In this document: one piece after another, positions 19,731 through 62,517 of the stretch
Position numbering within the stretch: position 1 is the stretch's first letter
Layout of the letters: each line of letters begins with the position of its first letter
NCBI RefSeq assembly: GCF_963678975.1
Contig: NC_089277.1
Coordinates: 17,746,757-17,810,756, forward strand
Source of the DNA: Dysidea avara
Taxonomy: Eukaryota; Porifera; Demospongiae; Dictyoceratida; Dysideidae
Length of the DNA stretch: 64,000 bases
Reading direction: 5' to 3'
The notes under the pieces: generated by a model
The model's database searches: none
Seen by the model: the letters and a program-made list of their open reading frames with translations, nothing else
Told to the model about the DNA's origin: nothing
Made by a program: the position numbers and the translations under genes

Positions 19731-19959
19731 GATATCACTTCTTTTTGTATTTGTATACTGCAAAGCCGGCCTATGGCTGGCTTTGGGGCTTTTTTAACCC
19801 ATGTGTTTTTTTCTTTAACACAGGAAGAAGAAAAGAACTTAAAGAAAAATTTTAGTACTTCAATTATTTTTGATTTTATTAGTAATTATACAAATTATAT
19901 ACATATATTTATTACATGCCCATTATTCCCCACAGGATTTTTTTTGCAGCTGATCTCTC

Positions 19960-36786: not shown

Positions 36787-36960
36787 ATGACTAAATACCA
36801 ACGAGAGAAACATAGGAAACTGGTACAAGAACTAAAACAAAGGAGAGGAAAAGGTGAAAAGGGTCTGATGATATTAAATGGTGAAATTGTACTTAGAAGA
36901 TACAATAGCCAAGGTGCTGCAAGTAATGCTCCCTCTACGGAAGCATTACAGAGTTCCTGA
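36787..36960 (+). CDS. partial upstream ORF of the LINE (ORF1 end or leader peptide)
   Basis: Reads MTKYQREKHRKLVQELKQRR then GKGEKGLMILNGEIV and ends at TGA (36958-36960). This basic KLVQELKxRRxxGE segment resembles the conserved tail found before the endonuclease frame of other jockey/CR1-group elements, but I recall this rather than searched it. It overlaps the start of the next frame by about 80 bases in another phase, which would suit reinitiation or frameshifting. The upstream part of ORF1 (coiled coil, RRM or zinc knuckles) is not visible, so the element may be 5' truncated. Confidence 0.5.
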   Translation: MTKYQREKHRKLVQELKQRRGKGEKGLMILNGEIVLRRYNSQGAASNAPSTEALQSS

Positions 36961-39763
36961 TGGTAAAGATAAGATTAGTCATTCTTGTGAAAATACTGAT
37001 ATTTTAACTACCCCAGATGTCCATGCTACTCAAACAAGTGATTCCAAGCTAAAAATTTTAAGTCTTAACTGTTGCAGTTTGAGAAGTGACACCAAAAAGG
37101 CAATGTTCTTGGCACTGGTGGATGAACATAATCCAGATGTGATAGGAGGAAGTGAATCTCACCTTGATCAATCTTTTTTCACACCTGAGATATTTCCTGA
37201 TTATTATAATGTGTTTAGGAAAGATCGTACTATGGGTGGTGGTGGTGTCTTTTTGTGTATAAAGAAATGTTTAAATGTTGTAGAAGAACCATCGCTGGAT
37301 ACAGAAGCTGAACTAATTTGGGCCAAAATTACACTGTTGAACCGATGTCCTATTCATGTATGTATATTCTATCGCCCACCAAATACTGATTCATATCCCA
37401 TAGAACAACTCCGTTTATCTATAACCAACTTACTGAACCGATCAAACTCTCCACCGAACATCCTACTAATAGGAGATTTTAATTTTCCAGGTATTTCCTG
37501 GAGTACTGGTTATGGCCAAATTAGTGTACCAACTTATGGAAGTGGACTGAATAACTTGTTCATAGATGTAATTAATGACGCTGGTCTTGAGCAGTTTGTA
37601 CAGTTTCCAACACGTCAGAATAGTGTATTGGACTTAGTATTTTCTTCTTACCCAAGAATTTCTGATCTTGACATTGTACCTGGTATTTCTGATCATGATG
37701 CTATAATATTTGATTTAGACATAATTCATAAACCAACATCAAGTAGAAACCAACACAAAGTTGCTTTATACCATAAAGGAGATATTCAATCAATAAAAGA
37801 TGATCTCATAACCTTTAGAAATGCTTTCCTGCTCAGTAACCCTCAGTCTAGATCTGTTGATCAGCTATGGCAAGAGTTTAAGCAAACAGTTCACAAGGCT
37901 GTTCTTGATCATGTTCCACACAAAGTAAATAAATCAAGTAATAGACTGCCATGGATAAATAGACAAATGAAAAAGGATATGAAAGTTCGAAAACGTTTGT
38001 ACAACAAAGCTAAAAGAACCGCTTTACAATCTGATTGGGATGCTTATCGTAAATTAAAGAATTCTATAAATTCGAAAGTGAGAGCAGCACACAATAACTA
38101 TTACAGCAGATTATTTAATAACTCCTTCAGTGGAAATCGTCGACAATTTTGGAAATACATCAGAACCAAAAAACAAGATAAACATGATATTCCGACATTA
38201 CTTATAGGTGACCAAACAATCCATCATGCAAAAGACAAAGCAAATGCTTTGAATAATCACTTTAAATCTGTGTTTACAAAGGAAAACTTGTTAACAATGC
38301 CTACTATGGATAGTAATACTGAAGTACCCAACATGCCTGATATATCTATCTCACAATCTGGAATACATAAGTTACTTATAACACTTGATACAAATAAAGC
38401 TAGTGGTCCAGACCGTATATCCCCTTACATCTTGAAGCATTGCGCAGATGAAATAACACCAATATTACACATAATTTTCAATCATTCTCTGTCAACTAAC
38501 TCATTGCCATCTGATTGGTTAAAAGCCAATATATGTCCAGTATTCAAGAAAGGTAACCACAGTAGTGTTAGTAATTATCGCCCCATATCTTTGACCTCCA
38601 TTTGTGCAAAGGTTATGGAACACATTATATATCACTCCATCATCAACCATCTAAACGAAAACAACATATTAATTGAAAATCAACATGGGTTCAGATCTAA
38701 TCATTCATGCATAACTCAACTAATTACTCTTACAGAAGACATATCCTTTGCTCTAGACCATCAGAAACAAATAGATATCATCCTATTGGATTTTTCTAAA
38801 GCATTCGATACAGTACCACACCAACGCTTAATGACCAAACTAAGATATTATGGAATTAATGGCAGTACTTATAACTGGATCCAAACTTGGCTTACCCAAC
38901 GTACTCAGTGTGTTGTTTTAAATAGTGAATCCTCTAGTCCAGTGTCGGTAATGTCTGGGGTACCACAAGGCACAGTTCTTGGACCTCTAATGTTCTTATT
39001 GTATATAAATGACATAACTAAAGACATCAACTCACCACTCCGCCTGTTCGCTGATGATTGCTTGCTTTATAGAGTTATCAATAGTGTAGAAGACATCAAC
39101 AGACTTCAAGAAGATTTAAATAAACTGTCAGAATGGGCCGATACTTGGCAACTTAAGTTCAATATTAGTAAATGTACAGTTATACGTTGCACGAGATCCT
39201 TATCACCACTCACTTACGACTACACACTTCACAGTCACATACTAGATATATCTGATCAACATATGTACCTAGGAGTCTTAATTCATAAATCACTGTCTTG
39301 GTCACCTCACATATCAAATGTTGTCAATAAAGCATCTAGAACACTCAATTTCTTAAAACGCAATCTAAACAAATGTTCAAAACAAGTTAAAGAATCAGCT
39401 TACCTAACAATGGTGAGACCACAACTAGAGTATGCATCTGCTGTCTGGGATCCCTACCACATTGGAGATATTTCAGAGTTAGAGAAAGTACAACGAAGAG
39501 CAGCGCGCTGGGTGTTGAATGACTATGGCAGATTCAGTTCAGTTTCTCTAATGTTGGATCAGCTGAAATGGCCTACATTACAAATTCGTCGGAAATTATT
39601 TAGGTTACAAATATTGCATAAGATATACTACCAACAGTTATCACTCCAAATTCCTCATTATTACCAAAAACACGACCAACAAGACAATACCACCATCTTC
39701 ACTATATTTTACCTACCTCATCCACCACGGCATACCAAAACAGCTATTTCTCAAGAACAATAA
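36878..39763 (+). CDS. LINE ORF2: AP-endonuclease plus reverse transcriptase
   Basis: A 961-codon frame. Residues about 58-285 form an exonuclease/endonuclease/phosphatase fold: KILSLNCCSLRS, then YRPPN, then ILLIGDFNFPGISW, and near the end ISDHDAI. Residues about 490-760 are the reverse transcriptase: NKASGPDRISPYIL, LLDFSKAFDTVPH (motif A), SGVPQGTVLGPLMFLLYIND (motif B) and LFADDCLLY (catalytic FADD). The thumb and the LEKVQRRAARWVL motif follow. There is no RNase H. The enzyme would nick chromosomal DNA and prime reverse transcription there. The last ~60 codons are out of phase: a one-base deletion in the A run near 39665-39670 diverts the frame, and the homologous C-terminus (TINEWNILPTDTIE) lies one phase over, ending at TAA 39850-39852. 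The protein is therefore almost intact but has an altered tail. Confidence 0.93.
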   Translation: MVKLYLEDTIAKVLQVMLPLRKHYRVPDGKDKISHSCENTDILTTPDVHATQTSDSKLKILSLNCCSLRSDTKKAMFLALVDEHNPDVIGGSESHLDQSFFTPEIFPDYYNVFRKDRTMGGGGVFLCIKKCLNVVEEPSLDTEAELIWAKITLLNRCPIHVCIFYRPPNTDSYPIEQLRLSITNLLNRSNSPPNILLIGDFNFPGISWSTGYGQISVPTYGSGLNNLFIDVINDAGLEQFVQFPTRQNSVLDLVFSSYPRISDLDIVPGISDHDAIIFDLDIIHKPTSSRNQHKVALYHKGDIQSIKDDLITFRNAFLLSNPQSRSVDQLWQEFKQTVHKAVLDHVPHKVNKSSNRLPWINRQMKKDMKVRKRLYNKAKRTALQSDWDAYRKLKNSINSKVRAAHNNYYSRLFNNSFSGNRRQFWKYIRTKKQDKHDIPTLLIGDQTIHHAKDKANALNNHFKSVFTKENLLTMPTMDSNTEVPNMPDISISQSGIHKLLITLDTNKASGPDRISPYILKHCADEITPILHIIFNHSLSTNSLPSDWLKANICPVFKKGNHSSVSNYRPISLTSICAKVMEHIIYHSIINHLNENNILIENQHGFRSNHSCITQLITLTEDISFALDHQKQIDIILLDFSKAFDTVPHQRLMTKLRYYGINGSTYNWIQTWLTQRTQCVVLNSESSSPVSVMSGVPQGTVLGPLMFLLYINDITKDINSPLRLFADDCLLYRVINSVEDINRLQEDLNKLSEWADTWQLKFNISKCTVIRCTRSLSPLTYDYTLHSHILDISDQHMYLGVLIHKSLSWSPHISNVVNKASRTLNFLKRNLNKCSKQVKESAYLTMVRPQLEYASAVWDPYHIGDISELEKVQRRAARWVLNDYGRFSSVSLMLDQLKWPTLQIRRKLFRLQILHKIYYQQLSLQIPHYYQKHDQQDNTTIFTIFYLPHPPRHTKTAISQEQ

Positions 39764-40114: not shown

Positions 40115-41774
40115 GTTTTTTTGTTGTTTTTTTTTACAAATTAATGACATAAGATAAAACAGTACATAATAAACAAAAACAAATTATCTTACATATGGGC
40201 CTCAGCGACCTACACAGCAATCGGTGCCTCAGCAATGGGACAGCGCAAACTGGACCTGGCACCGCGAATGTACATAATTGCAGACCTGAACAAAGAGAAA
40301 CTCAATTTACATCTCAGCCATCCCATCACTATTCTATAGGAAAGACTGTGCTTTGCACTCAAAAGGTTGGCCAATCTCTTATAAAACTGAGTAGCAGCAT
40401 CACCCATTCCACCAGTAGTAGTAAAAATTAAGGGAGTAAATGAGGCATTCTCTACTTCATGAACCCGTTGTTGGTATTCACGTCTCTTTTCCTTGTCATG
40501 ACGTCGGTATGCAGAGTGTAGGGGTTGAATTGAGGGTGCACTAGGGTTAAAAATTCTGACATCAAAGTATGACCTCTCAAATCGTCCTCCCCAAAAACCA
40601 TTAGCTGCAATGCCAGCCTTGCGTTATCATCACGATTAGCTGTTTTGTATTGAAGGGTCTCACCAGAAAGAGGCTGAAGGTGGGGTTCAGTGACAACATT
40701 GTTACAGACCTCGGAAAGTAAATTGGCAGTTAGATCACGCACTTCATTATGTCTCAGAGAAGGAAACCCACCCTTTGGGCAAGACAGAGCATGTTCTATG
40801 GTAAAAGAGTGACCACAGGCACAGGAAGTAGGGCAGGCAGATGGTAGCCAATGATAGCGAAGCGCAATTGCATCACGAAAAGCAGTTTTATGAAGCACAA
40901 AATTATGCAACTTCAATGGAAGACAAGAGAGCCAATTCGATGCACCCTTCTCCTGAGCCAACATGACTGAGGAATGCATGCTAGGAGGAAGTTCATCGAA
41001 CAAATGATTGGCAGATTGAAGTTGCTCTTGATGGCTCCTAGAGTGAAACTTGGATCGCAACTGAACCTGTGCATCAAGACAGTCACCTAGTTGATGTACC
41101 TGAGAGATAATCAAGCCAACGAGACCAGCATTTACTTCTACAGAGCAGGAACGCTGCTGTGACACAACAATCGAAGGATCAAACACACCAAGGCCTCCTA
41201 GCCGCACAGGCAAGGCAAATAGCTTTCTCTCAACATCACCAGGGACAGTTCGACCCAATAGACTAGGAAGGAAAACAGATTTAACAAAATTTTCAAGAGG
41301 AAGGAAAAGGTCTGTAGAACAAGAAGAAACACGAAAAAAATAGTTCCATCGGAAAGAGAGACCATGACGAAAAGCAGCATAGGAAGCATGAGGTTGTGTT
41401 TCGGCAAAGAGGCTCAAGGTCTTAAGATCATCAATCCAGCCATCCACTTTACGTCTCAAAAATAGCTGTTCAAAGGCACAAGTGCCAATTACACCTCCCA
41501 GATAATGGTGTCCTTCAGCAGTAACCTGAATGTCACAGTCTCCAAAAATTGTTCTAGCATCAGTTAAAACAGTTTCCTTGACTATCAAGATAGTTTTAGT
41601 AGCATTTGGAAAATAGCCATAACGGGGCCCTACGGAAGATAACAAGTCCCACCACTGCTTAAGCTTGGAAAGCTTTCCACCAGCAGCAGAGTCATCAGCA
41701 TACCAGCACTGCTTTACTAGACCAGTAAGACGAGAAATCAAGGGCAAAGTACCGATAGTGTACATAGCCATAGT
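40115..41774 (-). pseudogene. split retroelement E: C-terminal part (RT palm/thumb, zinc finger, endonuclease-like end)
   Basis: On the minus strand the coding sequence resumes at 41774 as TMAMYTIGTLPLISRL and reads CWYADDSAAGGKL (catalytic YADD, motif C) and WWDLLSSVGPRYGYFPNATK. A Cys/His cluster follows (CPTSCACGHSFTIEHALSCP). A one-base deletion near 40617 shifts the frame. Beyond it the sequence continues GFWGGRFERSYFDVRIFNP, VENASFTPLIFTTTGGMGD and MGWLRCKLSFSLFRSAIM to a stop at 40210-40212. A T-rich stretch at 40112-40135 may be the poly(A) tail of the minus-strand element. The finger plus FFDVRVF arrangement suggests a restriction-like endonuclease type. The N-terminal part lies 9.3 kb away at 51073-51855, separated by three insertions. 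Confidence 0.85.
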
Positions 41775-42702
41775 TAAGCATTCCAGTATCCGAGATTTTT
41801 TAATAAAAAAATTCTCCGTATATTCCCCAATAGAACTCTGGCACAAAATAACAACTCATGTTTAACTTGGGATTGCTCCGTCGTCCGAGCTCCAATCAGG
41901 ATGAAAATCACTGTGGGGTTTGTCCACACGCTGATCATCATGAAAATCTTAGTTTTATCGTGCGCGTTACGTATAAGTAAGTTTTGTGTTGTTTTGTAAT
42001 CTTTTCAAACCATGCAATGTATGTAGAATACTTTAAAACTTTTAAAAACGTACTGTTGGGTGGAAGGTAGTCACTGGTGCTTACTTTAAAGTGCGTAGTT
42101 ACTTCGCTCGGGTTAGCGGTTTTCAGCTCCAGAGCAACTTTCTGATGGCTGTGTCATCAGCTCAAAAGTATAAACCACTTCAAAGTCAGCATAACTATGC
42201 CATAATTGAAACCACAACTCCACCTTAAGTATTGTTGCATCATTGTGGTACCTCCACTTTAGTTGTTTACCTTTATAAGTTGTTAACTTGATGTTTTTAC
42301 TTACTTGAGATACTATGGGTATACACTGTTGTATTGAGAAGTGTGCAGTGGGTGAAACATATTTGCTCACCACAAAGCATACAAAGATCACTGAGATCCG
42401 ATACGATCTGAAGTTACTCTCATTACATGTACAAACTTGCAGCTAGAAGCAACTGTAGTTTCAAGATAGTCCAGATTGCTAGATGGCTTCTTGATTCAAT
42501 TGTGCCATTTTCCCCTTTAAAATGTATGGGGAGCCCTGGAGAAAAAATGTACCTTTTTTCAATTTTTAAGCACTGTGCATGCCAAAGTAGCTAATTCCAA
42601 CCCAACAAACTATATATTTCTGAGATCAACAATCAATACTCTATCTATTGAGCATATAAAAAGCCCATTTTTCCAAAATTAAAAATCGGGCTGGAATGCC
42701 TA
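41775..42702. mobile_element. insertion B: DNA element with TAAGCATTCCAG ends
   Basis: TAAGCATTCCAG at 41775 and CTGGAATGCCTA at 42691-42702 are inverted ends (11 of 12). CCATAGT lies on both outer sides (41768-41774, 42703-42709). Removing it together with C and D joins the two parts of the split reverse transcriptase in frame. 928 bp, no coding capacity seen. The 7- to 8-bp duplication suits a hAT-like element. Confidence 0.85.
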
Positions 42703-42710
42703 CCATAGTG

Positions 42711-43115
42711 TAGGCCTGAGCCTATTATGCTTTTAAAATTGCCTATTATGCTTTTGAGCATTGCTCCAAAAATTCCCCTATTATGCTCCAATTATGTACC
42801 ATTATGCTCATATAAAATTGTGTTTTGACTGCTCTATTAGAGTACCTAATGCATCTGTGAACGTTCTATTAGGATATTTCATTATGCGATGACTGTTCTA
42901 TTAGAGTATATCGATCTTCAACTAATCTTTTCTTCACAACGTAGCTGTAAATCTGATTTTTACCATGTTTGCACACTATCCTATTCTGCATCATGCAAAA
43001 TAGGCAGAGTTTCAGCTTCTCATATAACCAATGCACTAAAATTTTGCCTAATATGCTGATGCTTTTGGCTTCCCATTATGCGCCAAATTATGCTGGCATA
43101 ATCGGCGCAGGCCTA
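42711..43115. mobile_element. insertion C: hAT-like MITE with 8-bp target duplication
   Basis: TAGGCCTGAGCCTATTATGC at the left is matched by GCATAATCGGCGCAGGCCTA at the right, with two mismatches in 20. CCATAGTG flanks both sides (42703-42710, 43116-43123). The interior repeats CTATTATGCTTTT and contains CTCTATTAG motifs at about 42834-42915. It inserted at the same target bases as B. Confidence 0.93.
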
Positions 43116-43128
43116 CCATAGTGAGAGG

Positions 43129-43244
43129 TAGTCTCGCGTAGCCAGACCACTATTTCTCCCCACGGCGCTTATCGATTAGAAATTATAAGCGCCTGCTCGA
43201 AATAGGGTCTGGTGCACTTCCAATAGGCCAGTTGTGACAGCACC
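43129..43244 (+). repeat. left terminal inverted repeat of D
   Basis: 116 bp. Inside it GGCGCTTATCGATTAGAAAT followed by TATAAGCGCC forms a small hairpin (stem about GGCGCTTAT with ATAAGCGCC). The only difference from the right repeat lies just beyond this hairpin (GCGCC here, GCGCT in the other). Confidence 0.95.
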
Positions 43245-43362
43245 TCATTTAACACTTCGAGACTGTGGACAGATTCAAGCACGTTTTAAGTCGCCAGTGC
43301 GCTTATAATTAAGAGATGTCCTTTTCTCTTGCCGAGCAATCACTGATAGGATGGAATACTGT

Positions 43363-45914
43363 TAGGGATGCGTCGATTTCGCCAGCAAAATTATTGGAAT
43401 AATAGGAATACAAGAGCAACAAGCAAAATGCTGGCAAAATAGGAGCAAAATCGAGCAAAATAGGAGCAAAATCGAGCAAAATAGGCGCAAAATAAGCAAA
43501 ATTTGTTAATCTCAGATCTGTTTCAGACAGTGTGAATGTAACTGCATAACTAACACAAGTAACAACTTACCATAGCTACGTTTAACACTCGTACGTTTAA
43601 TGAGTATGGCTCTAGCTGAACTTTGACCCGAAGGCGAACCCACAATACATGTTAGCGAATAATCACGTGTGAAATAGTGTCTACAATGGATGTGATAGAA
43701 CGCATTGACTACAGTTCAAGTGCTGAAAGCGATGTTAGTGAAGTAGATGACAGTCTTAGCATTGTTAGTAATGATGATGACCGTGAATCGTCTCGCGAGT
43801 CAGATGTTACAACAACTTCGACTAGTACAACTTCGAGGACTCGTTCTACCGGAAGTGCCAGCAACTCAACGACGCCAACGTCTAGTGGAGTGTCCTTGCT
43901 TAGTGTGCTAAAGGCACCAAGTGCATCTGACTTCTCTCGTAAGAGAAAAATTGCCAAAAATCCACCAGCTGGCAGGAAGAGAGCATTACATTCGAATTCG
44001 CAGAGCAACCCAAAAACGATCAAGCCCCAGCAAAGAGTAACCGAATATTCCAAGGAACCCTTTACTGTAGCTACTGGAAAGCTTTTTTGCCAAGGATGCC
44101 GGGAAGAGTTACCCCTCAAAAAGAGCAGTATTGAGTATCACTTAAAATCTACTAAACATGCTAATGGAAAGAAAAAGCTGCAACAAAGGAATGTTAAAGA
44201 CTCAGACATTGCACAATCTCTGCAAAGGTATAATGCAGAAGCTCATGGGCGAGGTGAGACTCTTCCGGAACAACAGCAGGTTTTCCGAGTCAAAGTGGTC
44301 AAAACATTTCTTCAAGCGGGTGTACCACTAAGTAAGGTTGACCAGTTTCGTAGTCTTTTTGAGGAGACAGGCTATCGCCTTACAGATCGCAGATTTATGT
44401 TTGACCTTATTCCTTTTATTTTAGAAGAAGAAAAGGCACGTATTAAGCAATCACTCCAGGGTCAGTTCTTGAGTGTCATTTTTGATGGTACCTCTCATAG
44501 TGGAGAGGCATTAGCAGTCTTAGTGCGCTTTGTAAATGATTCTTTTGAAATTCAACAGCAGCTTCTAGCCATCCAACTGCTTTCAAAATCTCTCACTGGG
44601 GAAGAAATTGCACACGAATTGGTACAAGTGCTTTCAGTGTTCTACAGCATTTCTTCCAGCCATCTTATTGCTGCTATGCGAGATAGAGCATCTGTTAACA
44701 GTGTAGCAATGAGGACATTGAAGATTGTTTACCCTAATGTAATAGATATTGGATGCTTCAGCCATGCTTTTGATCGTGTTGGAGAGCACTTCAAAGTACC
44801 AACCCTGACTGAGTTTATTGGTAATTGGCTAGCACTTTTTTCACATAGCATTAAAGCCAAATTTCTATGGAAACAACAAACAGGAAAGGCAATGGCATCG
44901 TATAGTGCTACCAGGTGGTGGAGCAAATGGGAAATTTTTAAGCAAATAATGCTCCAGTTTGGTGATATCGAACCATTCCTAAGTGAAAATACAGACTTAG
45001 GCCCTGCATCTCGTCCAAAGTTACTAGCTATTTTAACTGACCGTGAAAAGCTTGAACACTTAAAGCTTGAGCTTGCTGCTGTTATTGATTGGGGGGAGGT
45101 GTTTGTTAAGGCTACATATAACCTTGAAGGAGATGGGCCACTGAGTTTCACAACTTATGAAATAGTACAGACTGTTGTTGCAGCAGTCAGGGCAGCTCAT
45201 ACTCCAAACACTGAAGCTGTTATTCGCAGTATCACTACTCAATCAACTGCACAGCAGAGGCATCGCAGCTATGCTCGAAGCTGTATGCAACCAGCTCTAG
45301 ATTACTTTCAAGAACTGCTAGATTCTTCCTTAAAGGAGCAAATTTTAGTTTTTAAGGCTGTGAGAGTTTTCAATCCGCACAAGATAGTAATGCTTAAGCC
45401 AGATGTTTCTCATGTAAATGCATTGCAGGTTGTTCCCTTCTTTAAGGATGACGAGCTTGAAAATTTGAAGGCTGAACTTCCTTCTTATGTAGCTAAGGCG
45501 GATGGTATTAGTGATGAACTTGCTGCTCTGGAATGGTGGAAGCTCAATGCAACTGATTTGCCTTTATGGTCAAATGCTGTAAAGAAGGTCTTGACCATAC
45601 AGCCCTCCTCGGCTGCTGCAGAAAGGGTGTTCTCACTATTGAATTCAGGATTTGGTGACCTACAAGGAAATTCACTAAAGGATTATATGGAGGCATCAAT
45701 CATGCTAAGATACAATCACTAATATCTAAACACCATAGTGTATGTAAACAGTGCTTATTGATTATTACATGTAATTATTATTATTACATTGTACACCAAC
45801 TATGGAGCAAAATAGATTGTTGACAAGCAAAATATTGAGCAAAATAGGTAGGTAAAAAAAGAATTGCTGGAAAGAAAAATAGGTGAGAAAAAAAGCAAAA
45901 TAGACTCATCCCTA
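43363..45914 (+). mobile_element. autonomous hAT transposon nested in D
   Basis: Inverted ends TAGGGATGCGTCGATTTCGC and GCAAAATAGACTCATCCCTA (reverse complement TAGGGATGAGTCTATTTTGC) bound 2552 bp. AATACTGT is duplicated on both sides (43355-43362, 45915-45922). Subterminal regions are packed with GAGCAAAATAGG repeats (about 43380-43500 and 45800-45900), as expected of transposase binding sites. It holds one intact intronless transposase gene. It sits in D's leader, about 110 bp before the DUF6589 gene start, and could affect that gene's expression. Confidence 0.95.
43677..45722 (+). CDS. hAT transposase (CGGBP1-like zinc finger)
   Basis: 681 residues, no intron. An acidic, Ser/Thr-rich N-terminus (1-80) is followed by a basic segment (88-122, likely nuclear import). 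Then a zinc finger: LFCQGCREELPLKKSSIEYH then LKSTKH, with C138, C141, H155 and H161, of the BED/CGGBP1 type that binds DNA ends. The RNase H-like core shows VIFDGTSHSGEA (first Asp, about residue 270), MRDRASVNSVAM (second Asp region, about 335) and SATRWWSKWE. The C-terminal hAT dimerisation motif reads PLWSNAVKKVLTIQPSSAAA then ERVFS. The length is normal for hAT transposases. The protein would cut and paste elements bearing the TAGGGATG ends. No frame lesion is visible, so it may be active. A second Met at codon 4 is an equally possible start. Confidence 0.93.
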   Translation: MSTMDVIERIDYSSSAESDVSEVDDSLSIVSNDDDRESSRESDVTTTSTSTTSRTRSTGSASNSTTPTSSGVSLLSVLKAPSASDFSRKRKIAKNPPAGRKRALHSNSQSNPKTIKPQQRVTEYSKEPFTVATGKLFCQGCREELPLKKSSIEYHLKSTKHANGKKKLQQRNVKDSDIAQSLQRYNAEAHGRGETLPEQQQVFRVKVVKTFLQAGVPLSKVDQFRSLFEETGYRLTDRRFMFDLIPFILEEEKARIKQSLQGQFLSVIFDGTSHSGEALAVLVRFVNDSFEIQQQLLAIQLLSKSLTGEEIAHELVQVLSVFYSISSSHLIAAMRDRASVNSVAMRTLKIVYPNVIDIGCFSHAFDRVGEHFKVPTLTEFIGNWLALFSHSIKAKFLWKQQTGKAMASYSATRWWSKWEIFKQIMLQFGDIEPFLSENTDLGPASRPKLLAILTDREKLEHLKLELAAVIDWGEVFVKATYNLEGDGPLSFTTYEIVQTVVAAVRAAHTPNTEAVIRSITTQSTAQQRHRSYARSCMQPALDYFQELLDSSLKEQILVFKAVRVFNPHKIVMLKPDVSHVNALQVVPFFKDDELENLKAELPSYVAKADGISDELAALEWWKLNATDLPLWSNAVKKVLTIQPSSAAAERVFSLLNSGFGDLQGNSLKDYMEASIMLRYNH

Positions 45915-46026
45915 AATACTGTGGATTGTGTCGAAAGCCAGTACCTTCAAGTAAAGACCGAAGACTGCTTCATTGAGGAACCTGCGATAAAGAGGTAGCC
46001 ATCCTGAACTTTTTGATTTCTGCTAC

Positions 46027-49000
46027 ATGGCCAGGGCATTCGTTAAGATCATCGTTCGAGCTGAGCAGAGAGAGAACGTTTATTTGTTCAACTTGCAAAG
46101 GAACTTGAAGAGATACAACGACGCCTGTGACAAGATTTCTGAATTGTCTTCACAGATTGTTTCCAAGATAAACATCTGTGTTCCATCTCAGGCAACTTCA
46201 AGCACTTGTGTGCCACAGACAAGGTTTGTAATGTGATTATGTCTTAATTCAGTTAAGGTATGCACCACATCTTCATGGTCAAGCTCCAGAGTATGTACTG
46301 GTGAGAAGCGATCTGCTGAAGCTGCTACGCTAGACAATGATGAAGAGGAATCGGTGTCATGCAATGAAACGGTAAGATATTGTAATTATTTAATTGGTTA
46401 TTAATTTGTTTCTTTAATCAGAATTCTGTTGCTGCTGCTACGCCATTTTCACCAGAAGTATCTGTAAGGATTGTGTTTGAATTCTGTATTTATGTGTAAA
46501 TTTTTTTTTTTTTTTTTTGCGTTATAGATATTAGTCAAAGGCCGTGATCGAACAAGGAGGCATTTGATGACTCCAGTACGAAAACCTTTTGCTTTGTCTC
46601 TTTCAAGAAGGAGTTATAATGCCTGCTCTGAGAAGGCAGTTAATTCAAATAGTTTTCAAGAGCCCATAATTGACTCATTGGCCTTCAAAGCCAAAAAAGA
46701 AATGGAATGCTTGAATTCTCAGCCATCACAGCTCAAAGATTCCCCAAAGGCATTGGAAAAGTTTAGCTGGAATTTATTAAGTTTAGAGTTAAAGGAAACT
46801 GTCCCTACATTATGGTCTTTCTTGGAATCATTGTTACCAAAGGCTAAACAGAAGTTTATTTGTTTTTTAATTTCCATGCTATTAAAGATGCAATGCAAGC
46901 AGCTTTGCCAAGTGCAGAAGGCAGTATCAATGCTATTGTATGGAAATGGTGTTCACAAACAGGTACTTTTATCATTCTATGCATGTGTTAACTCATATGA
47001 AAACTTTATAACAGGTCTTTCATTGTTTGCAACCATTTATGGTTACTTTATCTGTGTCAGTAACTGCGCAAGCAGTGAAGCAAATATCAGATAGACATGA
47101 CGCAGATGTGATAAGTTGGGCTAATGATATCTTGGAAAACAGAGAGGTTATTTTATGGAAATATGATTATTATCATTTATCGTGTACCTTAATGCACAGG
47201 TTACTAGTGATATGTTGCCAGCCAACAGCACTTCACCAATATTTTTCATGGATGAAAATCACGTTTTCTTTAGTAGCTCAGATGATGTTGAAGTTAGCTC
47301 CGATGTTGTTAGCAGCTGTTCTAATGATGATTCCTCTGTTGGTGATGTTTCTGAGTTTACTGAAGAAGATGAAGAAGATGACGATGATTATGACTTGAAT
47401 GATTTTGTAGATATCCAGGATGATGAAAGTTGTGGCGAATTACTGTGTGATTCTATTTGCCAACAAGTGTCTTTGCCTGAGCAAAGTAGCCCCCTTCCTA
47501 TAGATATGGAACAATGTTCTGCTGTACAGAATTCTTCTCCGCTCTTGGTTGCAGCCAGCAATCAAGTTATAAACAATCAGACACACACAACTCAATCTGC
47601 TTCACTTAATGTGTCAAATAATTGCTCTGGATATGTGATCGTAGGAGATAACATTGACAAAAATATACGTCCATCATACCAGCGTCAAGATCGTACTACC
47701 CAATCCTTACATTATTTCCATTCATATGCTGTCTTGAACAGATTGGATACTTCTGGATTGTCGGACAATCGCCCCTCACATATTACCATATCTCCAGAGA
47801 AGATTATACCAGATTTTTCTGAACGTCAAAAATTACTTGGGGATTTTGAGACTTTAGTTACCAGGTATGTATGTATAAGTGTATGTTTATATCTATCAAT
47901 GATTGCACAGGATTTTGGTGGAACATATGGATGAGTTTAAAGCTCAGAAATGTGAAGTTCAGTGGCACGTTAAGAGTGACTATTCTGAAGAAATGGCCAG
48001 TAAATCTAGAGTGGTATGTGTAGCAATAGAATATCCAGTGTATTCCTGCTTGTGTTGTCTTTCCATTATTAAAAATTCTTCTGTTTATAGGTGCCACTTG
48101 GACTGGTTCTCAAGAATGAAGCAAAGCTAAAAGATATGACTGAGATCTTAGACGACCTAAGTAAATATGTACCAGTTCATGTGGCATCAAGGACTGAAAC
48201 CATTGAAGGCAAGTCATTTGATATAGATGATTCCAGATTGTTCCAAATACTGCTGTTTGGAGATCAACTTACTGTGGCACGTGCTAGAGGTGCTATAGGA
48301 TTAAGGGATGATGACACCGATGCACTTCACCGTTTAGAGGGTTTTGTCCCAGCTGTAGCAGACTGGCATACTAGGATGTGTTTACTTCAGGTATAGTACA
48401 TACACAATACTTATGAAGTGACTGTATGATAATTCACAAACCTTGTAGGAAATGTGGAAAAGGCTGTATTCCAAAAAAGGATCAAGGGATAGGGGTACCC
48501 TATATCAACTTAAAAACCTTTTGAATCGGACTGCGGTGAAACAAGACCCTTCAAAAGCAATGAAGGCTACTGAAGATTTTTTGACGGTTCTTTTTGCCTA
48601 TGTTATAACTGCTGCAAAGAAGCTCATCGAAGAAAGACCAATGCATTCTCACCAATGCAATGATATTGCCAGACAAATTGTTAGCAGGTGGGTAAAGATC
48701 AACTTGTCCTCCGATGTAACCGACATGCCACCTAAAGGAACAGATTGTAGTTACGCTATTGATTTTATAACTTTGGGACTACTGTGGCATGGATTTCATG
48801 ATGCTGTGAGAGAAGGGGAAGGAAATCGCATAATCAGATACTGGCGTTTCCTGCTTCCTGTATTCAAGCAGTGTGGTCGTAGAAACTATGCCATAGAAGC
48901 ATTCAATTTGCTTGCACAGATGCTTTTATTGTCACCACGAAAAGTAGCTGAATTAAAGTGGTGCAGAACTGTAAATACAATTGGAAGAGTAGGCCACAAT

Positions 49001-49360
49001 ATCCCTTGTGATCTCCACATGGAGCACCTAAACAAACGATTAAAGTTTATGATTGGAAATCTGGGATCAAATACAATGCCACAATGCATGAAGTCAATTG
49101 GAATGTCCCTTGGCATTATTGCTAAGGTTTGCTCAACTTTTGAACATGGGGCTGAGGTGCATGAAAACAAAGCGTTTCACACCTATCCGAAGTTTACAAA
49201 GGATCTTAAATCCATTGTCGACCAGCTTGTTTCAGACAAAATATTTGATGGACAAGGTCATTTGTTTCTCTCATATAAGAAGCACCCACTACTGCAAACT
49301 ATAAATTGGTCTTCCCTCACTAAGTGGGTTGTAGAAAAAATTGTTGATTTAGATTTGTAA
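46027..49360 (+). CDS. DUF6589-like protein of element D, probable transposase (9 exons)
   Basis: Exons 46027-46223, 46284-46371, 46422-46463, 46528-46962, 47015-47146, 47200-47864, 47911-48013, 48091-48390 and 48449-49360. All introns are GT-AG (46 to 77 nt) and the phase holds through every junction to TAA, giving 957 residues. Residues about 300-520 include a strongly acidic stretch (TEEDEEDDDDYDLNDF). Then come SLHYFHSYAVLNRLDTS, SKSRVVPLGLVLKNE, LLFGDQLTVARARGA (D612), AVADWHTRMCLLQ, TLYQLKNLLNRT, YWRFLLPVFKQCGRRNYAIE (about 785-804) and CDLHMEHLNKRLK (841-853). I recognise this series as the family called DUF6589, common in cnidarian, sponge and fungal repeats. D612, the Asp of ADWH and E846 are candidate metal ligands, but this is inference. 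Its place between long inverted repeats makes it the likely transposase. Confidence 0.88.
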
Positions 49361-49369
49361 TATTTTTAG

Positions 49370-50872
49370 TTAACTGATGTTTCTTGAACAATCAACACAC
49401 ACACACAATGGTGTACACAAATCACAACATTTACATGCAACTATGGACTGTTTATCTAAGTCACTAAATAGAAAATTTTTGAATAATAGTGTTCTTCTAC
49501 AATTGGTTTTGTTCTCTCCATACTGCTTAACTTGATTGCAGATATGTTGATGTGCTCCTTTACCGTAATAAAGTATGGCTTCAGATTGACTCCCATTTCT
49601 ATCAGCTCTTCCCGTTTCTTGGACCAGTTCTTCCAATGAATTTGGTACACCCCAGTTGATGACACGTGTAATGTCACGACAGTCTACGCCAAGACCAAAT
49701 GCAGTGGTGGCAATGATCAGTCTCAAGTTGGTTTCCTCACGACAAAATTCCTTCAATACTTCTGCCCGTATTACTGCTCTAGATGCAGATGTAAACAATG
49801 ATATCATCCGAAATGGAATGACACACGGGGCTCCTGGTGGCTCCGTTAAATTTATTCCCAACTTTCTCTTCATTTTTGCATTAAATTCAGAGCACTGCAG
49901 TAACGTTTGACAAAATACAACAGTTTTGGGTGTATTGGCACGATGTTCTATCAGCTCCAAGGCTAGAGTAGAGCAAAGTTCAGTCATAGTAGGCATTGGA
50001 ACAACACAGTACTTGATATTAGGCCTTTCTGGTGCCAGTCCTATTATATTCACATCAACCATTGATAATCTTTCAAATATAATTTTAGCTGTTTCACTGC
50101 TGGCTGTTGCTGTCAAGGCAAGAATGTTTATGTCTTTATTAATCAAACTTCGCACAGTTCCAATCTCAGCAAATGCTTTACGGAAATTGTCCCCCCTATG
50201 TGTTGCATACCAGTAAATGCATATGTGGTCAAATACTATAACTTACCACATCCTGACACAGTGAGCTTCATCAACAACAAATCCAGCTAAATTATTTGTA
50301 TACACAGAACTGAGCAACATTCGTCTGATCCTCTCATTACGTAATAAGCTTTCTGGACTCAAAAAAACAAGTTGAACTTTCCCCTTCATTATTACATCCA
50401 AACAATCCTCATGTCCTTCTCCATAATATTCCACAGTAAGACCTTTTAATGATAAATTAGTTTTCTGGTCCATCATTAAAGCCGTTAAAGGGCTTATGAC
50501 CACAACAATGCATCCTTCACGGCCTACAAAAAGGACAAATCAGTATATCACTGGCAATCAAAAAAGTGACGGATCTACACGTTCAGTGGAAACTACAATC
50601 TGTTATCTATCTATAATCTCAATACGATTATTACCTCTAAGCTTATCAAAAATGATTGGAAGAGCTGCATACACTACAGATTTGCCGTATCCAGTTGGCA
50701 GCACAACAAAAGTGTCATTTCCTGAAATGTAGCTCTCTATTGCGTCACGCTGTTTTGGTTTCAACGATTCTAAACCCAGTTGATGTATGGCACATTCGAT
50801 AGCTTCACTCTGGTCCGTAGATAGCAAGTGTTCCTCACTGTTGCTGGCACCGCTCTGCTCGAAACTTGACAT
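49370..50872 (-). CDS. RecQ-like helicase of element D (3 exons)
   Basis: Exons, in gene order, 50872-50635, 50523-50247 and 50195-49370. Introns of 111 and 51 nt are GT-AG and keep the frame, giving 446 residues. RecQ-family superfamily II motifs appear in order: LGLESLKPKQRDAI (motif 0, 32-45), LPTGYGKS (Walker A, 58-65), SPLTALMMDQ (90-99), DEAH (164-167), ALTATAS (198-204), ATTAFGLGVD (334-343) and QETGRADRNG (364-373). A short cysteine-rich end (C426, C428, C429, C432, C436, C438, C441) stands where RecQ has its zinc-binding domain. There is no winged-helix or HRDC domain, so it is a trimmed RecQ. It would unwind DNA with ATP, plausibly opening ends or repairing donor sites during transposition. 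Start chosen as the first ATG before motif 0. The stop lies 9 bp from that of the DUF6589 gene. Confidence 0.93.
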
Positions 50873-50956
50873 GTTACTCTAAGAACGTTAACGCAATAAA
50901 TACTACAGGCGCTATGGTTTGGTTAGGCAGCCTATCAACACCTCAAGTTCCTACCG

Positions 50957-51072
50957 GGTGCTGTCACAACTGGCCTATTGGAAGTGCACCAGACCCTATT
51001 TCGAGCAAGCGCTTATAATTTCTAATCGATAAGCGCCGTGGGGAGAAATAGTGGTCTGGCTACGCGAGACTA
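50957..51072 (-). repeat. right terminal inverted repeat of D
   Basis: Reverse complement of the left repeat over 116 bp with one mismatch. It begins GGTGCTGTCACAACTGGCC and ends GGCTACGCGAGACTA. The helicase gene starts 85 bp inside it, so this repeat and the short gap probably hold the helicase promoter. Confidence 0.95.
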
Positions 51073-51855
51073 AGTGAGAGGATCACCCTGGGTAGTCCCT
51101 TCTGAGGTCCCTTCACTAGAAAAGATGGTACGACCTCCAGTAAACAAAAAAGCATCAGTACGATAAGTGTTAATTAAAATGGAAGCAAGAGAAGGGCAGA
51201 GGACCTCAACGTTTCGGAGTGTTACTTGACGATTTAACTCATTGAAGGCATTCTTAGCATCAACAAGGAGAACACCATCAACCTCAGGCAAGTCAAATAT
51301 TTGTTTCATTGCATGGACAGCAGCTTCACAACCACCCATTTGACCAGCACATAATTGAGAGGATCCTGCAGCCTGCTGTAAATCACGCCCTATAATTCTC
51401 GTCACAGCCTTTCCAATAATTCTTCGCAAAACTTCACCCACACCAATAGGGCGAACACCAGGACGCTTGTCAAGAGGAATTAGGCGACAAGCACAGTAAG
51501 CAGGTAAATATTTTGGATTAACATAAGAGGTGGAAATACGATGGGCAAAAGCAGAAACAGCTGCACACAAGTCATTAGAAGCATCACCAAACGCTGTACA
51601 AAGATGTCTCCAAGCATGAGCATCAAGACCAGAAGGGACTGCAGAGCCACTTATCTGCATGACCACTGATTTAATTAAAGCAGCATCTAAGCCATCAAAT
51701 AGAACTGGATGAAACGATTGTTTGTGGGCTCCAGGAGAGATGTTATTCTGTGAACAGAAACGAAGATCGTTTTGCGGTAGCCGTGATGTCACACGATGAT
51801 ATCGTTGGACACGTTCCGTGAACAATTTCACACTTGGTGCTTCATCCAGCATCGA
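51073..51855 (-). pseudogene. split retroelement E: N-terminal part (RT fingers/palm)
   Basis: The minus-strand frame starts near 51852 (MLDEAPSVKLFTERVQRYHR; upstream is stopped, so the true N-terminus is lost). It reads CRLIPLDKRPGVRPIGVGEV then LRRIIGKA (fingers), GVLLVDAKNAFNELNR (motif A with catalytic Asp) and EGTTQGDPLT (motif B). The ORF breaks exactly at D's target duplication. The next residues, TMAMYTIG, are found at 41774, on the other side of insertions B, C and D. The whole split gene is about 2.4 kb when the insertions are set aside. The clade is uncertain; it resembles a cnidarian and sponge RT group with a restriction-like endonuclease end. Confidence 0.85.
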
Positions 51856-51939
51856 GGTAGCATATTATGTGAGGTCACTGGGAATCCTCAGTACTAAAGA
51901 AACCTTCGTCAACTAGTACTCCAAGTGCCGAAAAATTAG

Positions 51940-52689: not shown

Positions 52690-55235
52690 ATGGTGGTTTC
52701 TTTGTAACTGAACACTCTACAAGGTAGATGCTCTCTCTACAGGGTGAATTGTTTGTAGCTGAACGATCTACAAGATAACTTCTTCTAGCTGATCTCTCTA
52801 CAGGGTGATTTGTTTGTAGCTGAATTCTGTACAGGCGATTTGTTTGCAGCTGAGCTCTTTACAGAATGGTTTCTTTGTAGCTGAACTCTTTACAAGGTAA
52901 CTTCTTCTAACTGATCTTTCTACAGGGCAATTTGTTTGTGGCAGAATTTTATACAGGGTGATTTCTTTGCAGCTGAACTCTCTACATGGTGGTTTCTTTG
53001 TAGCTGAACTCTCTACAAGATAATTTCTTCTAGCTGATCTCTCTACAGGGTGATTTTGTTTGTAGCTGAACGATCTACAAGGTAACTTCTTCTAGCTGAT
53101 CTCTCTACAGGGTGGTTTGTTTGTAGCCGAATTCCGTACAGGTGATTTGTTTGCAGCTGAGCTCTTTACAGAATGGTTTCTCTGTAGCTGAACTCTCTAA
53201 AAGGTAACTTCTTCTAACTGATCTTTCTACAGGGCAATTTTTTTGTGGCTGAATTTTCTACAGGGTGATTTCTTTGCAGCTGAACTCTCTACATGGTGGT
53301 TTCTTTGTAGCTGAACTCTCTACAAGGTAATTTCTTCTAGCTAATCTCTCTACAGGGAGATCTGTTTGTAGCTGAACTATCTACAAGGTAACTTCTTCTA
53401 GCTGATCTCTCTACAGGGTGATTTGTTCGTAGCTGACTTCTGTACAGGTGATTTGTTTGCAGCTGAGCTCTTTACAAAATGGTTTCTTTGTAGCTGAACT
53501 CTCTACAAGGTAACTTCTTCTAAATGATCTTTCTGCAGGGTGATTTGTTTGTAGCTGAACTATCTACAAGGTAATTTCTTCTAGCAGATCTCTCTACAGG
53601 GTGATTTGTTTGTAGCTGAATTTTGTACAGGTGATTTGTTTGCAGCTGAGCTCTTTACAGAATGGTTTCTTTGTAGCTGAACTCTCTACAAGGTAATTTC
53701 TTCTAGCTGATCTCTCTACAGGGAGATCTGTTTGTAGCTGAACTATCTACAAGGTAACTTCTTCTAGCTGATCTCTCTACAGGGTGATTTGTTCGTAGCT
53801 GACTTCTGTACAGGTAATTTGTTTGCAGCTGAGCTCTTTACAAAATGGTTTCTTTGTAGCTGAACTCTCTACAAGGTAACTTCTTCTAACTGATCTTTCT
53901 ACAGGGTGATTTGTTTGTAGCTGAACTCTCTACAGGTGATTTGTTTGCAGCTGAACTCTCTACATGATGTAGTTGAACTCTCTACAAGGTAACTTCTTCT
54001 AGTTGATCTTTCTATAGGGTGATTTGTTTGTAACTGAACTCTCTACAAGAAATCATCTTCTAGCTGAACTTTCTACAGGTGATTTGTTTGCAGCTGAACT
54101 ATCTACATGATGGTTTCTTTGTAGCTGAACTCTCTACAAGGTAACTTCTTCTAGCTGATCTTTCCACAGGGTGATTTGTTTGTAGCTGAACTCTCTACAA
54201 GGTAACTTCTTCTAGCTGATCTCTCTACAGGGAGATTTGTTTGTAGCTGAACTCTCTACAGATGATTTGTTTGAAGCTGAACTCTCTAAATGATGGTTTC
54301 TTTGTAGCTGAACTCTCTACAAGTTAACTTCTTCTAGCTGATCTCTCTACATGGTGATTTGTTTGTAGCTGAATTCTGTATAGGTGATTTGTTTGCAGCT
54401 GAGCTCTTTAAATAATGGTTTCTTTGTAGCTGAACTATCTCAAGGTAACTTCTTCTAGCTGATGTCTTTACAGGGTCACTAGTTTGTAGCTGATCTTTCT
54501 ACAGGGTGATTTGTTTGTAACTGAACTCTCTACAAGGTAACTTTCTCTAGCTGATCTTTCTACAGGGTGATTTGTTTGTAGCTGAATTCTGTACAGGTGA
54601 TTTGTTTGCAGCTGAGCTCTTTAAAGAATGGTTTCTTTGTAGCTGAACTCTCTACAAGGTAACGTCTTCTAGCTGATGTCTCTACAAGGTCAATAGTTTG
54701 TAGCTGAGCTCTCTACATGGTGGTTTCTTTGTAGCTGAACTCTCTACAAGGTGACGTCTTCTAGCTGATCTTTCTACAGGGTGATTTGTTTGAAGCTGAA
54801 CTCTCTACAAGGTAACTTCTTCTAGCTGATCTCTCTACAGGGAAATTTGTTTGTAGCTGAACTCTCTACATGATGGTTTCTTTGTAGCTGAACTCTCTAC
54901 AAGGTAACTTCTTCTAGCTAATCTCTCTACAGGGAGATTTGTTTGTAGCTGAACTCTCTACATGATGGTTTCTTTTTAGCTGAACTCTCTGCAAGGTAAC
55001 TTTTTCTATTGATCTCTCCACAGGGCGATTTGTTTGTAGCTGAACTCTCTACATGGTGGTTTGTTTGTAGCTGAACTCTACAAGGTGATTTCTTCTAGCT
55101 GAACTATCCCTTTCCATAGTTGCATGAACTCCCTACAAGGTAACTTCTTCTAGCTGATCTCTCTACAGGGTGAATTGTGTGTAGCTGATCTCTATACAGG
55201 TTTCTTGTTTCTAGCTGATCTCTTGAATTCTCTTC
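52690..55235. repeat. ~30.5-bp tandem array of composite element, copy 2
   Basis: About 83 units of the same family as 19960-24040, here enriched for AAGGTAACTTCTTC and ATGGTGGTTTCTTTG variants. A block containing GTTCGTAGCTGACTTCTGTA recurs at about 53425 and 53791 (366 bp, twelve units), so this array has its own larger repeat. Confidence 0.93.
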
Positions 55236-58045: not shown

Positions 58046-59197
58046 CTAGATTTGATTTTTCAAAGTTTTATGATAAGGTGAGGCTTCCCTTAAACTAGCA
58101 AGGTATTCGTTCCTCCACATGTCCCAAAACATATTCAGTTGTTTTTGACCTTTCTTCCATTTGTTAAGTAAAGTTGTCATTGAATCTTCAGAAGGACAGT
58201 AGTCAATTTCGGAGTCCATCAGAGGAAAGCATCTCAAATTGGAATTCAAAAAGTGTGCAGGGATTAAACTAAACCCAGATTTAAATTCCTCGTACACATA
58301 TGTGAGTGGTCGGGTATTTACAACTGCTTCTACTTCAGATAATGTAACAATGAATTGGTCCAAAGTAAGTCTTCTCAATCCAATTCCTTTCCTAAGACAT
58401 TGTTTCACCAACCTGACAAGTCGCTCATAAAAACCCCCTTGCCAGGGTGCTAACGCCGTAGTAAACTGCCACTTGATTCCATTACTTGAAAGGTAAGTGA
58501 CCACCTCGTCATGTAAAGCTATCTGCCTCCATTGTTCATCAATCACTGTCTTCACCAATTTAAATTGAGCAGCGTTGTCAGAGATAATTGTCTCTGGTCT
58601 CCCCCTCCTTGCCATAAATCTCCTTAAGCATTGTAAAAAATGTTCACCAGAAAGACTTCTAACCCATTCCAGGTGAATTGCACGAATGGCAAGGCAGGTG
58701 AATAAGTAAATCCACATCTTCATTATCACTGCTCCATCTTTCACAAATACTGGTCCCAAATAATCTAACCCAGTAAATTGGAAAGGTAAAGATTCAGATA
58801 CTCTTTGTTTGGGCCAGGGTGGCATCCTTGGTAAAGTAAATGATGGTCCTTCATGACGTCGACAAACTAAGCAATGGGACAGACAAGCTCTGACCTCCAC
58901 TCTCCCTTGATGTAGCCAGTACTCCTGTCGCAAAGTAGAGAGTGTATGGGAGATGCCAGCATGTATCAGCCGCTCATGTATCTCTTTAATCACCAATCTA
59001 GTGAAATTCTCTCGCCGTGGTAGTAGCTTAGGATACTTAGCATCTTCAGACATCTCAGCATTCAAAAATCTGCCATGGCATGTCAGTATTCCAAATTCAT
59101 TTGGTGCTAAGCCAAGTTGCTTCTGTAAACCATTTCTCTGTTTCTTAACAATAGCTTGAAACACATCTGAAAATCTTCTATGTTGAATTACATACAC
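58046..59197 (-). CDS. BEL/Pao pol: integrase region
   Basis: 383 codons open. An HHCC zinc-binding motif comes first: HERLIHAGISHTLSTLRQEY then CLSHCLVCRR. The core follows with FTGLDYLGPVFV (first Asp), ETIISDNAAQFK (second Asp) and APWQGGFYERLVRLVKQCL (Glu), the DD(35)E set of retroviral-type integrases in its Pao form. C-terminal WRNEYLASLRE precedes a stop. It would insert the element's cDNA into the chromosome. The frame is one segment of a broken polyprotein, joined to neighbours by frame changes, so it is unlikely to be made as a working enzyme. Confidence 0.9.
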   Translation of the reverse strand: MYVIQHRRFSDVFQAIVKKQRNGLQKQLGLAPNEFGILTCHGRFLNAEMSEDAKYPKLLPRRENFTRLVIKEIHERLIHAGISHTLSTLRQEYWLHQGRVEVRACLSHCLVCRRHEGPSFTLPRMPPWPKQRVSESLPFQFTGLDYLGPVFVKDGAVIMKMWIYLFTCLAIRAIHLEWVRSLSGEHFLQCLRRFMARRGRPETIISDNAAQFKLVKTVIDEQWRQIALHDEVVTYLSSNGIKWQFTTALAPWQGGFYERLVRLVKQCLRKGIGLRRLTLDQFIVTLSEVEAVVNTRPLTYVYEEFKSGFSLIPAHFLNSNLRCFPLMDSEIDYCPSEDSMTTLLNKWKKGQKQLNMFWDMWRNEYLASLREASPYHKTLKNQI

Positions 59198-59297
59198 CCA
59201 AAACTAACCGATAGCTCTTATATCCTGAGAATAAACACCATAGTCTGTCAGGTTATCAATAATTTCAAAATCTTATGTTTGCTGTACATTCTCTTTT

Positions 59298-60113
59298 TCA
59301 ACTCATCAGAACATTTATCCCACACTCTCTTTTTAATGAACTCAAACAGAACACTGTTACTCGAAGCAATTTCCTCAAAGAAGAGTATTTTGTTTCATCA
59401 ATTGTACACACTGATCCTTGATCACTATTCTCTTGAACAACATTAGCTGCTTCAAGAAATACATCACCTGCACTCCTTGCCTGATGAAACAGTTGATCAA
59501 GATCATCTGATGAAATCTCAGGTAAATTCCAGCTTGGCCAATTTCTTTCAGCAGATTGCAACCAGGATGGACCATGCCACCATAACTTTGACTGTTTAAT
59601 TTCTAAAACTGTAAGTCCTCTAGTCGCAAAATCTGCAGGATTATCTTGAGAGGGAATAAACCCAAAACTGACATTCTTCAATTGTCGTATTTCATCAACT
59701 CTGTTTTGCACAAACACTGGTAGTTGCTTATCACTCTTTATCCAATGTAAAACACACTGTGAATCTGTTAGGATCACTTTCTTAGAAATGCACAAATTCA
59801 ATTCATCAACAACAAATTTAGTAGCACGAGTCCCTATCAACACAGCCAACAATTCTAGTCTAGGGAGGCTTAAAGGTTTCACTGTAACACCCTTCTTCCT
59901 CTTATTACCCAATGGTGAAAGCCTCATATTAGAAAATATCAGGTTCACCTTAACTGAATGTTGACAAACAACTCTTAGATAAACTGCTGTAGCATACGAC
60001 TTAGCAGAAGCGTCACAAAAGGTCAAAATCTGGTAAACAACACCTTGACCATTATCACAAACATATCGAGGAATTCTCAGTTCTGACAACTGTAAGTTGT
60101 AATACCTCAACAA
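59298..60113 (-). CDS. BEL/Pao pol: RNase H-like and connection region
   Basis: Reads ILTFCDASAKSYATAVYLRV (DAS, first acidic residue), then LSLPRLELLAVLIGTR (PRLEL, glutamate) and KVILTDSQCVLHWI (TDS, aspartate). FGFIPSQDNPADFATRG and WWHGPSWLQ follow. This series is diagnostic for the RNase H-like (A17/DUF1759-linked) region of Pao elements. It overlaps the reverse transcriptase frame in another phase, and a further frame change separates it from the integrase near 59200-59300. Confidence 0.88.
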   Translation of the reverse strand: MLRYYNLQLSELRIPRYVCDNGQGVVYQILTFCDASAKSYATAVYLRVVCQHSVKVNLIFSNMRLSPLGNKRKKGVTVKPLSLPRLELLAVLIGTRATKFVVDELNLCISKKVILTDSQCVLHWIKSDKQLPVFVQNRVDEIRQLKNVSFGFIPSQDNPADFATRGLTVLEIKQSKLWWHGPSWLQSAERNWPSWNLPEISSDDLDQLFHQARSAGDVFLEAANVVQENSDQGSVCTIDETKYSSLRKLLRVTVFCLSSLKRECGINVLMS

Positions 60114-60855
60114 TCCTTTTCCACTCTTGAAATAAACATGGGGTCAAACAATCATCCCAACCCAATTCATTAGTCCAAAGTGTTTGTAGAAATACTTTAC
60201 CAAAAAGGGTAACTGGTGTCACAAAACCTAACGGATCATAAACCTTGGCTACAATGCTAACAACACATCTCTTAGTAACATTAACCATACACTTCACAGT
60301 ATCTTCCTTAAACCCACATATTTGTAAATAGTCTTCTACACTGTTCCATAACAGCCCAAACACCTTCATTACAATTCCTGTTGACCTTTCCTTTATAGGT
60401 AAATAATCTAAAAACTGTTTACAATTGGAAGACCATTCTCTTAAATTCATTGATGCCCTTTTAAAAATGATTTCGGCCTCCTCATAAATCTGACAAGCCT
60501 CTTGAACTGAGTCAACCCCCACTGACAAATTGTCAACATAGATATCATCACACTCAATGAGGCAATATCAGAACCATCTTGTTTTAAATGATACTGTAAT
60601 GTTGCCTCCAATAAGAAGGGACTGCATATAATGCCAAATGGCACTCGACAAAAACGATACACACATAAATTTCCATTTACCTTATCAGGTCTGGTGGGAT
60701 CCTTGAACCACAAAAATCTAGTCACGTCCCTCTCACTTTCTTGTATTCCCACCTGTAGGAAGGCCTTTTCAATGTCTGATAGAATTGCTATGTAATAAGT
60801 ACGGAACCTCAACAACACACCACACATGTCTGGTAAATTAACTGGGCCTCTATAT
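60055..60855 (-). pseudogene. BEL/Pao pol: reverse transcriptase, second part
   Basis: Continues from the insertion site: LPDMCGVLLRFRTYYIAILS then DIEKAFLQVGI (motif A with catalytic Asp), FLWFKDP, CRVPFGIICSPFLLEATLQY (motif B). After a frame change near 60555 comes DIYVDNLSVGVDS (motif C; YVDN is a form I recall in Pao), then FNLREW-like MNLREWSSNCKQFLDYLP and AKVYDPLGFVTPVTLFGKV. Split across two frames and cut at its 5' side by a 1.3-kb element. Confidence 0.88.
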
Positions 60856-62174: not shown

Positions 62175-62517
62175 CTCTATATAGACATTCATTAAGACTC
62201 TTCTCGTGTTGACTAGCTTTCACAGAGGCATCATAGACTATTCTGATCTTAGTTGTAGATTTAGATGGTGTAATTACTGGATGGTGTGGAAGATAATGTT
62301 TCTTACTTTCAGTTTCACTTCTCCCATTAATGATTTCAATTATCCCACCATGAAGCTGTGACTCAATGACATCACAATACTGCCTAAGTAAACCGTGGTT
62401 ATTTTGAAGCCTTCTAGGCAATGACTTCATTCTGCCATAGGCAATATCAAAATTTTCAGGTAAGATAGAATTAGCTTCCAAGGCCACGTGACAAAATAAC
62501 GCCCTTCCTTGTAACAA
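62175..62517 (-). pseudogene. BEL/Pao pol: reverse transcriptase, first part
   Basis: Reads NFDIAYGRMKSLPRRLQ, VIESQLHGGIIEIING, then KKHYLPHHPVITPSKSTTKI then RIVYDASVKA and SLNECLYR. HYLPHHPV followed by RxVYDAS is the fingers region characteristic of Pao reverse transcriptases. It is cut precisely at the CTCTATAT target of the inserted element. The protease frame upstream runs into it through a frame change near 62478. Confidence 0.9.

Follow-up and report, generated by a model that had tools for sequence, protein, structure and literature searches.

Which group of DNA transposons should hold an element that pairs a DUF6589 gene with a gene for a RecQ-like helicase, and does such an element call for a group of its own? 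The question is raised by a locus of the sponge Dysidea avara in contig NC_089277.1 (RefSeq assembly GCF_963678975.1). The whole stretch analysed, called the window below, comprises 64,000 nucleotides (positions 17,746,757 to 17,810,756 of the forward strand), and all positions are counted from its first letter. A sequence-only reading had taken the element for a DNA transposon with DUF6589 as its likely transposase and AcademH as its nearest known group, and this much stands. Most likely it is an AcademH-type cut-and-paste transposon in which a DDE transposase of the DUF6589 family would work with the RecQ-like helicase; that the transposase itself is kin to Academ, and that the element is cut and pasted rather than copied, is what we infer. 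It is thus a well-preserved further example of a known group, not a new kind, and a new superfamily is not called for.

AcademH was reportedly named in 2020 (Kojima, Mobile DNA 11:15), under a title that gives animals and fungi. According to a 2023 paper, AcademH elements encode a helicase and make target duplications of 9 or 10 bp, AcademX elements encode a nuclease and make duplications of 3 or 4 bp, the difference in length is tied to helicase versus nuclease, and both belong to one superfamily (PMC10045372). The Dysidea element has a helicase besides its putative transposase and, in the one copy at hand, a duplication of 9 bp. The sequence-only reading had held a 9-bp duplication to be at odds with Academ; the lengths given for AcademH overturn that claim, and with it goes the chief argument for a superfamily apart. 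In fungi, AcademH is described as low in copy number and present in Basidiomycota, Ascomycota and Mucoromycota (PMC10799480).

The ends of the element are sharply defined. As claimed earlier, its 116-bp inverted repeats have one difference (at repeat position 65), and the 9-bp duplication AGTGAGAGG is present on both sides. The element ends read TAGTCTCGCG...CGCGAGACTA, i.e., TA...TA. A palindrome of nested stems spans positions 13-85 of each repeat. Folded as single-stranded DNA, the left repeat reaches -21.3 kcal/mol (z -3.65; matched by none of 200 shuffles) and the right one -18.8 kcal/mol (z -2.91; matched by 1 of 200), but the repeats are near-copies of each other, so the end palindrome counts as a single observation, not two. 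The computed folds suggest that the palindrome provides binding sites in pairs or serves as a hairpin substrate. A BLASTN search of the window with the element (E 1e-5) returned only itself and its two repeats, and therefore no second copy there. When up to 3 mismatches are allowed, a 20-base pattern for the ends matches the window three times, at the two ends and at 19373, compared with 0.00 times in shuffles. Looser matches at 7790, 15810 and 19373 were not accepted as copies; that at 19373, the only one of them fold-tested, is without the palindrome (z -0.23). Those at 7790 and 19373 start with TAGTCTCG, as the element ends do, and may be ends of other repeats.

The DUF6589 gene, modelled from the first downstream ATG, has eight GT-AG introns of 46-77 nt, and its sole stop is the terminal one. 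Pfam PF20231 (DUF6589) covers residues 498-891 of the 955-aa protein with an E of 4.4e-44, in agreement with the family named earlier, and there is no other Pfam match. A first protein search gave 13 matches among 7995 scored candidates, from Dysidea avara, Halichondria panicea and Ephydatia muelleri plus Em labels that we took as Ephydatia. A profile search gave 8 matches, 6 of them new, from Amphimedon queenslandica, Halichondria, Dysidea, Ephydatia and two entries without a species name. DUF6589 is matched in all 19 relatives, and every species-named relative is a sponge. Scoring in both searches was confined to those candidates with the most shared words, and more distant relatives, such as fungal DUF6589 proteins, may therefore be missed.

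AlphaFold models of two relatives (not of the element's own protein) display a predicted RNase H-like core with a long helical insertion ahead of the final E. Once the PDB matches are re-ranked, DDE transposases (P element, Hermes, RAG1 and Transib) head the list for either model. A viral structure library yielded 132 matches at E ≤ 10 and 0 at E ≤ 0.001. Three acidic residues, D446, D610 and E844, are conserved across the relatives' alignment, and on the models they form the likeliest catalytic triad; D446 belongs to a DNxDK motif, which the model places on its first strand. The sequence-only reading had proposed D612, the Asp of an ADWH motif and E846; two of these three survive, as D612 and E846 (D610 and E844 in the present numbering) lie where a second D and the E are expected, but for the first D the better candidate is D446. 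The ADWH Asp is conserved in 12 of 14 alignment rows, the remaining two being gaps, but was rejected as a catalytic residue: it lies past the strand that follows D610, so that a structural or signature role is more likely. Taken with the predicted fold, these residues make the DUF6589 protein a probable candidate for the DDE transposase of the element.

The second gene meets the earlier description as a RecQ-like helicase. Its product matches Pfam DEAD (E 7.2e-22) and Helicase_C (E 1.3e-11), retains motifs I, II and VI intact (GYGKS, DEAH, QETGRADR), and finds its nearest PDB structures in RecQ, WRN and BLM (RecQ 1oyw, E 5.8e-38). The RecQ zinc-binding domain is weak (E 0.0015, 19.7 bits versus a Pfam cut-off of 25). 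Alternative splicing models, three in number and with products of 443-449 residues, are further candidates for this gene. No nuclease domain was found by Pfam in either gene. A search with the helicase gave 590 matches, and among the 120 listed the named ones include sponges, molluscs, a brittle star and bacteria. A tree of 25 rows (the window protein and 24 chosen from those 120, without a confirmed sponge host RecQ) joins it to Dysidea helicases, with support of 100/99 for the nearest and 100/97 for two. It falls in an 11-row set (99/98) that holds three Dysidea and two Amphimedon rows, and six rows grouped with bacterial RecQs stand outside this set. Six of its inner branches are open, and in other parts of the tree long branches come together.

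The coordinates of all these features are collected in Table 1. The sequence-only reading counted two unbroken multi-exon genes of 957 and 446 residues. The helicase has the 446 residues stated and the other gene model comes close (955), but the N terminus of the DUF6589 protein is broken; the 957-residue model looked unbroken because it begins downstream of the damage. A cysteine-rich N terminus (M start and at least 2 Cys within the first 14 residues) is present in 11 of the 19 relatives, and CxxC...CxxC in most of these makes it probably zinc-binding. In the window, the frame that crosses the insertion site of a nested hAT element matches a profile built from these 11 N-terminal stretches with an E of 2.2e-6, whereas the best of 1560 control frames drawn from the rest of the window has an E of 3.4. 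This frame meets an in-frame stop and then switches to the frame used downstream. An intron removing the stop was considered by eye and rejected, since it would delete conserved positions too and the frame break would persist. Because of the stop and the frame break, this copy is probably unable to make the whole transposase, splicing round the damage aside, and on the evidence of its sequence is probably no longer autonomous.

Table 1. Positions in the window of the transposon, its genes, its target and the nested insertion
Feature	Position	Strand	Details
Whole element	43129..51072	.	7944 bp, nested hAT counted in; delimited by inverted repeats and 9-bp duplication
Left terminal inverted repeat, 116 bp	43129..43244	+	115/116 match to right repeat
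Right terminal inverted repeat, 116 bp	50957..51072	-	115/116 match to left repeat
Target site duplication, left copy	43120..43128	.	AGTGAGAGG
Target site duplication, right copy	51073..51081	.	AGTGAGAGG
DUF6589 gene from first downstream ATG	46027..49360	+	955 aa
DUF6589 exons 1-5	46027-46223, 46290-46371, 46422-46463, 46528-46962, 47015-47146	+	
DUF6589 exons 6-9	47200-47864, 47911-48013, 48091-48390, 48449-49360	+	
First four DUF6589 codons	43351..43362	+	start of cysteine-rich N terminus, cut by hAT
Remaining cysteine-rich N terminus	45923..46108	+	with in-frame stop and frame break
RecQ-like helicase gene	49370..50872	-	446 aa; exons 50872-50635, 50523-50247, 50195-49370
Nested hAT element (later insertion)	43363..45914	+	ORF 43689-45722; Dimer_Tnp_hAT E 8.5e-10 (Pfam)
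Nested hAT 8-bp duplication	43355-43362 and 45915-45922		AATACTGT
Target: reverse-transcriptase-like ORF split by element	51073..51864	-	reads ...GTTQGDPLT

Pfam confines the hAT match to the nested element, and once that insertion is set aside the two genes are indeed the only original cargo. The description of the transposon as young suits its nearly identical ends; since its insertion this copy has taken up a hAT element and suffered coding damage. With the flanks joined over the duplication, the open reading frame (ORF) of the target stays in frame, ...GTTQGDPLT being followed by M; its RVT_1 match (E 0.055) is under the Pfam cut-off. An apparent continuation of the interrupted gene, TMAMYTIGTL..., lies inside ORF 40452-41855, past a second insertion. 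The latter, of ~1.3 kb (about 41779-43115, edges by eye), is apparently in the same reverse-transcriptase-like gene; its flanks, also by eye, are CTCACTATGG / CTTAACTATGG, and it lies ~4 bases from the left AGTGAGAGG copy.

We propose the following course of transposition. The DUF6589 protein would act as a DDE transposase, with a probably zinc-binding N terminus, a core that contributes D446 and D610, and a helical insertion before E844. It would bind the 116-bp ends, excise the element and insert it into target DNA at positions staggered by 9 bp, and this would account for the 9-bp duplication. The helicase, encoded on the opposite strand, may separate the DNA strands at the ends or at gapped joints, and the ends, being long palindromes, are a plausible substrate for it. 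A Pfam family labelled as of unknown function thus gains a probable role as a DDE transposase, and the AcademH-type elements gain a sponge representative whose two ends are almost the same. It also raises the question of what use a RecQ-like helicase is to a cut-and-paste element with palindromic ends.

The assignment to AcademH has to be set against other explanations. An RNase H fold, for which the sequence-only reading had proposed a test, is predicted by the two AlphaFold models, but Foldseek alone found no significant match for them. The helicase is not peculiar to AcademH, since KolobokH, said to occur only in fungi, encodes a RecQ helicase too (PMC9587614). A RecQ-like helicase alone is therefore no proof of AcademH kinship, and this leaves some room for a separate, unnamed DDE superfamily with DUF6589 as its transposase, near P, hAT and RAG in fold, whose helicase would open the self-palindromic ends for the transposase and whose helicase and 9-bp duplication would resemble AcademH by convergence. 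Its nearest predicted folds (P, hAT, RAG1 and Transib) fit such a superfamily, and a literature search, mostly outside subscription journals, found among the papers listed no description of a DUF6589/PF20231 protein or element and no link to Academ. We nevertheless consider it quite unlikely. The AcademH title is said to cover animals as well as fungi, and the objection from duplication length was mistaken. Helicase plus 9-bp duplication is, moreover, the very combination stated for AcademH (PMC10045372).

A KolobokH-type element, i.e., a Kolobok transposase with a RecQ helicase, would also explain the second gene, the more so as one rhodophyte Kolobok carries its RecQ helicase on the complementary strand, as here; yet the same source gives Kolobok TTAA-specific 4-bp duplications and ends of 5'-RR and YY-3', as against AGTGAGAGG and TA...TA, and the reported restriction of KolobokH to fungi also speaks against a sponge member (PMC9587614). 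This explanation is highly improbable. The broken N terminus invites a different thought, namely that the element is a non-autonomous or decayed carrier and its helicase a captured host RecQ gene with no part in transposition; gene capture by helicase-bearing transposons is raised as a possibility in a paper on fungi (PMC10799480). However, the helicase motifs are intact, and in a tree without a confirmed sponge host RecQ the protein groups with Dysidea and Amphimedon rows, apart from those of bacterial RecQs, so that capture appears unlikely. The AcademH-type transposon is hence the explanation retained.

Wider searches and the rest of the window can be described briefly. Viral contigs gave no relative of DUF6589, of the Dysidea helicase or of the end pattern, and a DUF6589 scan of genome contigs found none, in a collection that, like the viral one, may omit the window's own genome. 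The end pattern occurs among the genome contigs in 4 bacterial ones, a number that, roughly estimated, does not exceed chance expectation for 257 billion bases. In the window itself, neither Rfam at its gathering threshold nor a tRNA scan gave a match. The window opens with a satellite array (1-7460; 27-bp unit, ~274 copies) that runs to its edge. Two arrays 29 kb apart, at 19939-23806 and 52724-55223, lie in stretches of negative AT skew, and their units, TTTGTTTGTAGCTGAACTCTCTACAGGGTGA and one of 61 bp, are similar. A 961-aa open frame with endonuclease and reverse transcriptase domains (36878-39763) is a non-LTR retrotransposon, and at 58046-63966 the minus strand holds a Pao/BEL-like retrotransposon in pieces, with Peptidase_A17, an integrase zinc domain and DUF1758.

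Among the known systems, the P element, Hermes (hAT), RAG1 and Transib resemble the DUF6589 protein in its predicted fold, in which an RNase H-like core is followed by a large helical insertion ahead of the final E. They differ in sequence, as the DUF6589 profile matches no PDB chain at E ≤ 10. These families are not known to carry a helicase. The hAT and P superfamilies make an 8-bp target duplication, a rule from which the outer element departs with its 9 bp. KolobokH is alike as a DDE transposon with a RecQ helicase and unlike in its TTAA duplications and RR/YY ends (PMC9587614). AcademX differs by its nuclease and its duplications of 3 or 4 bp, compared with 9 bp and no Pfam nuclease domain here. 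The closest likeness, drawn from the published description, is to AcademH, from which no difference has emerged and which has a helicase besides the transposase and a duplication of 9 or 10 bp (PMC10045372).
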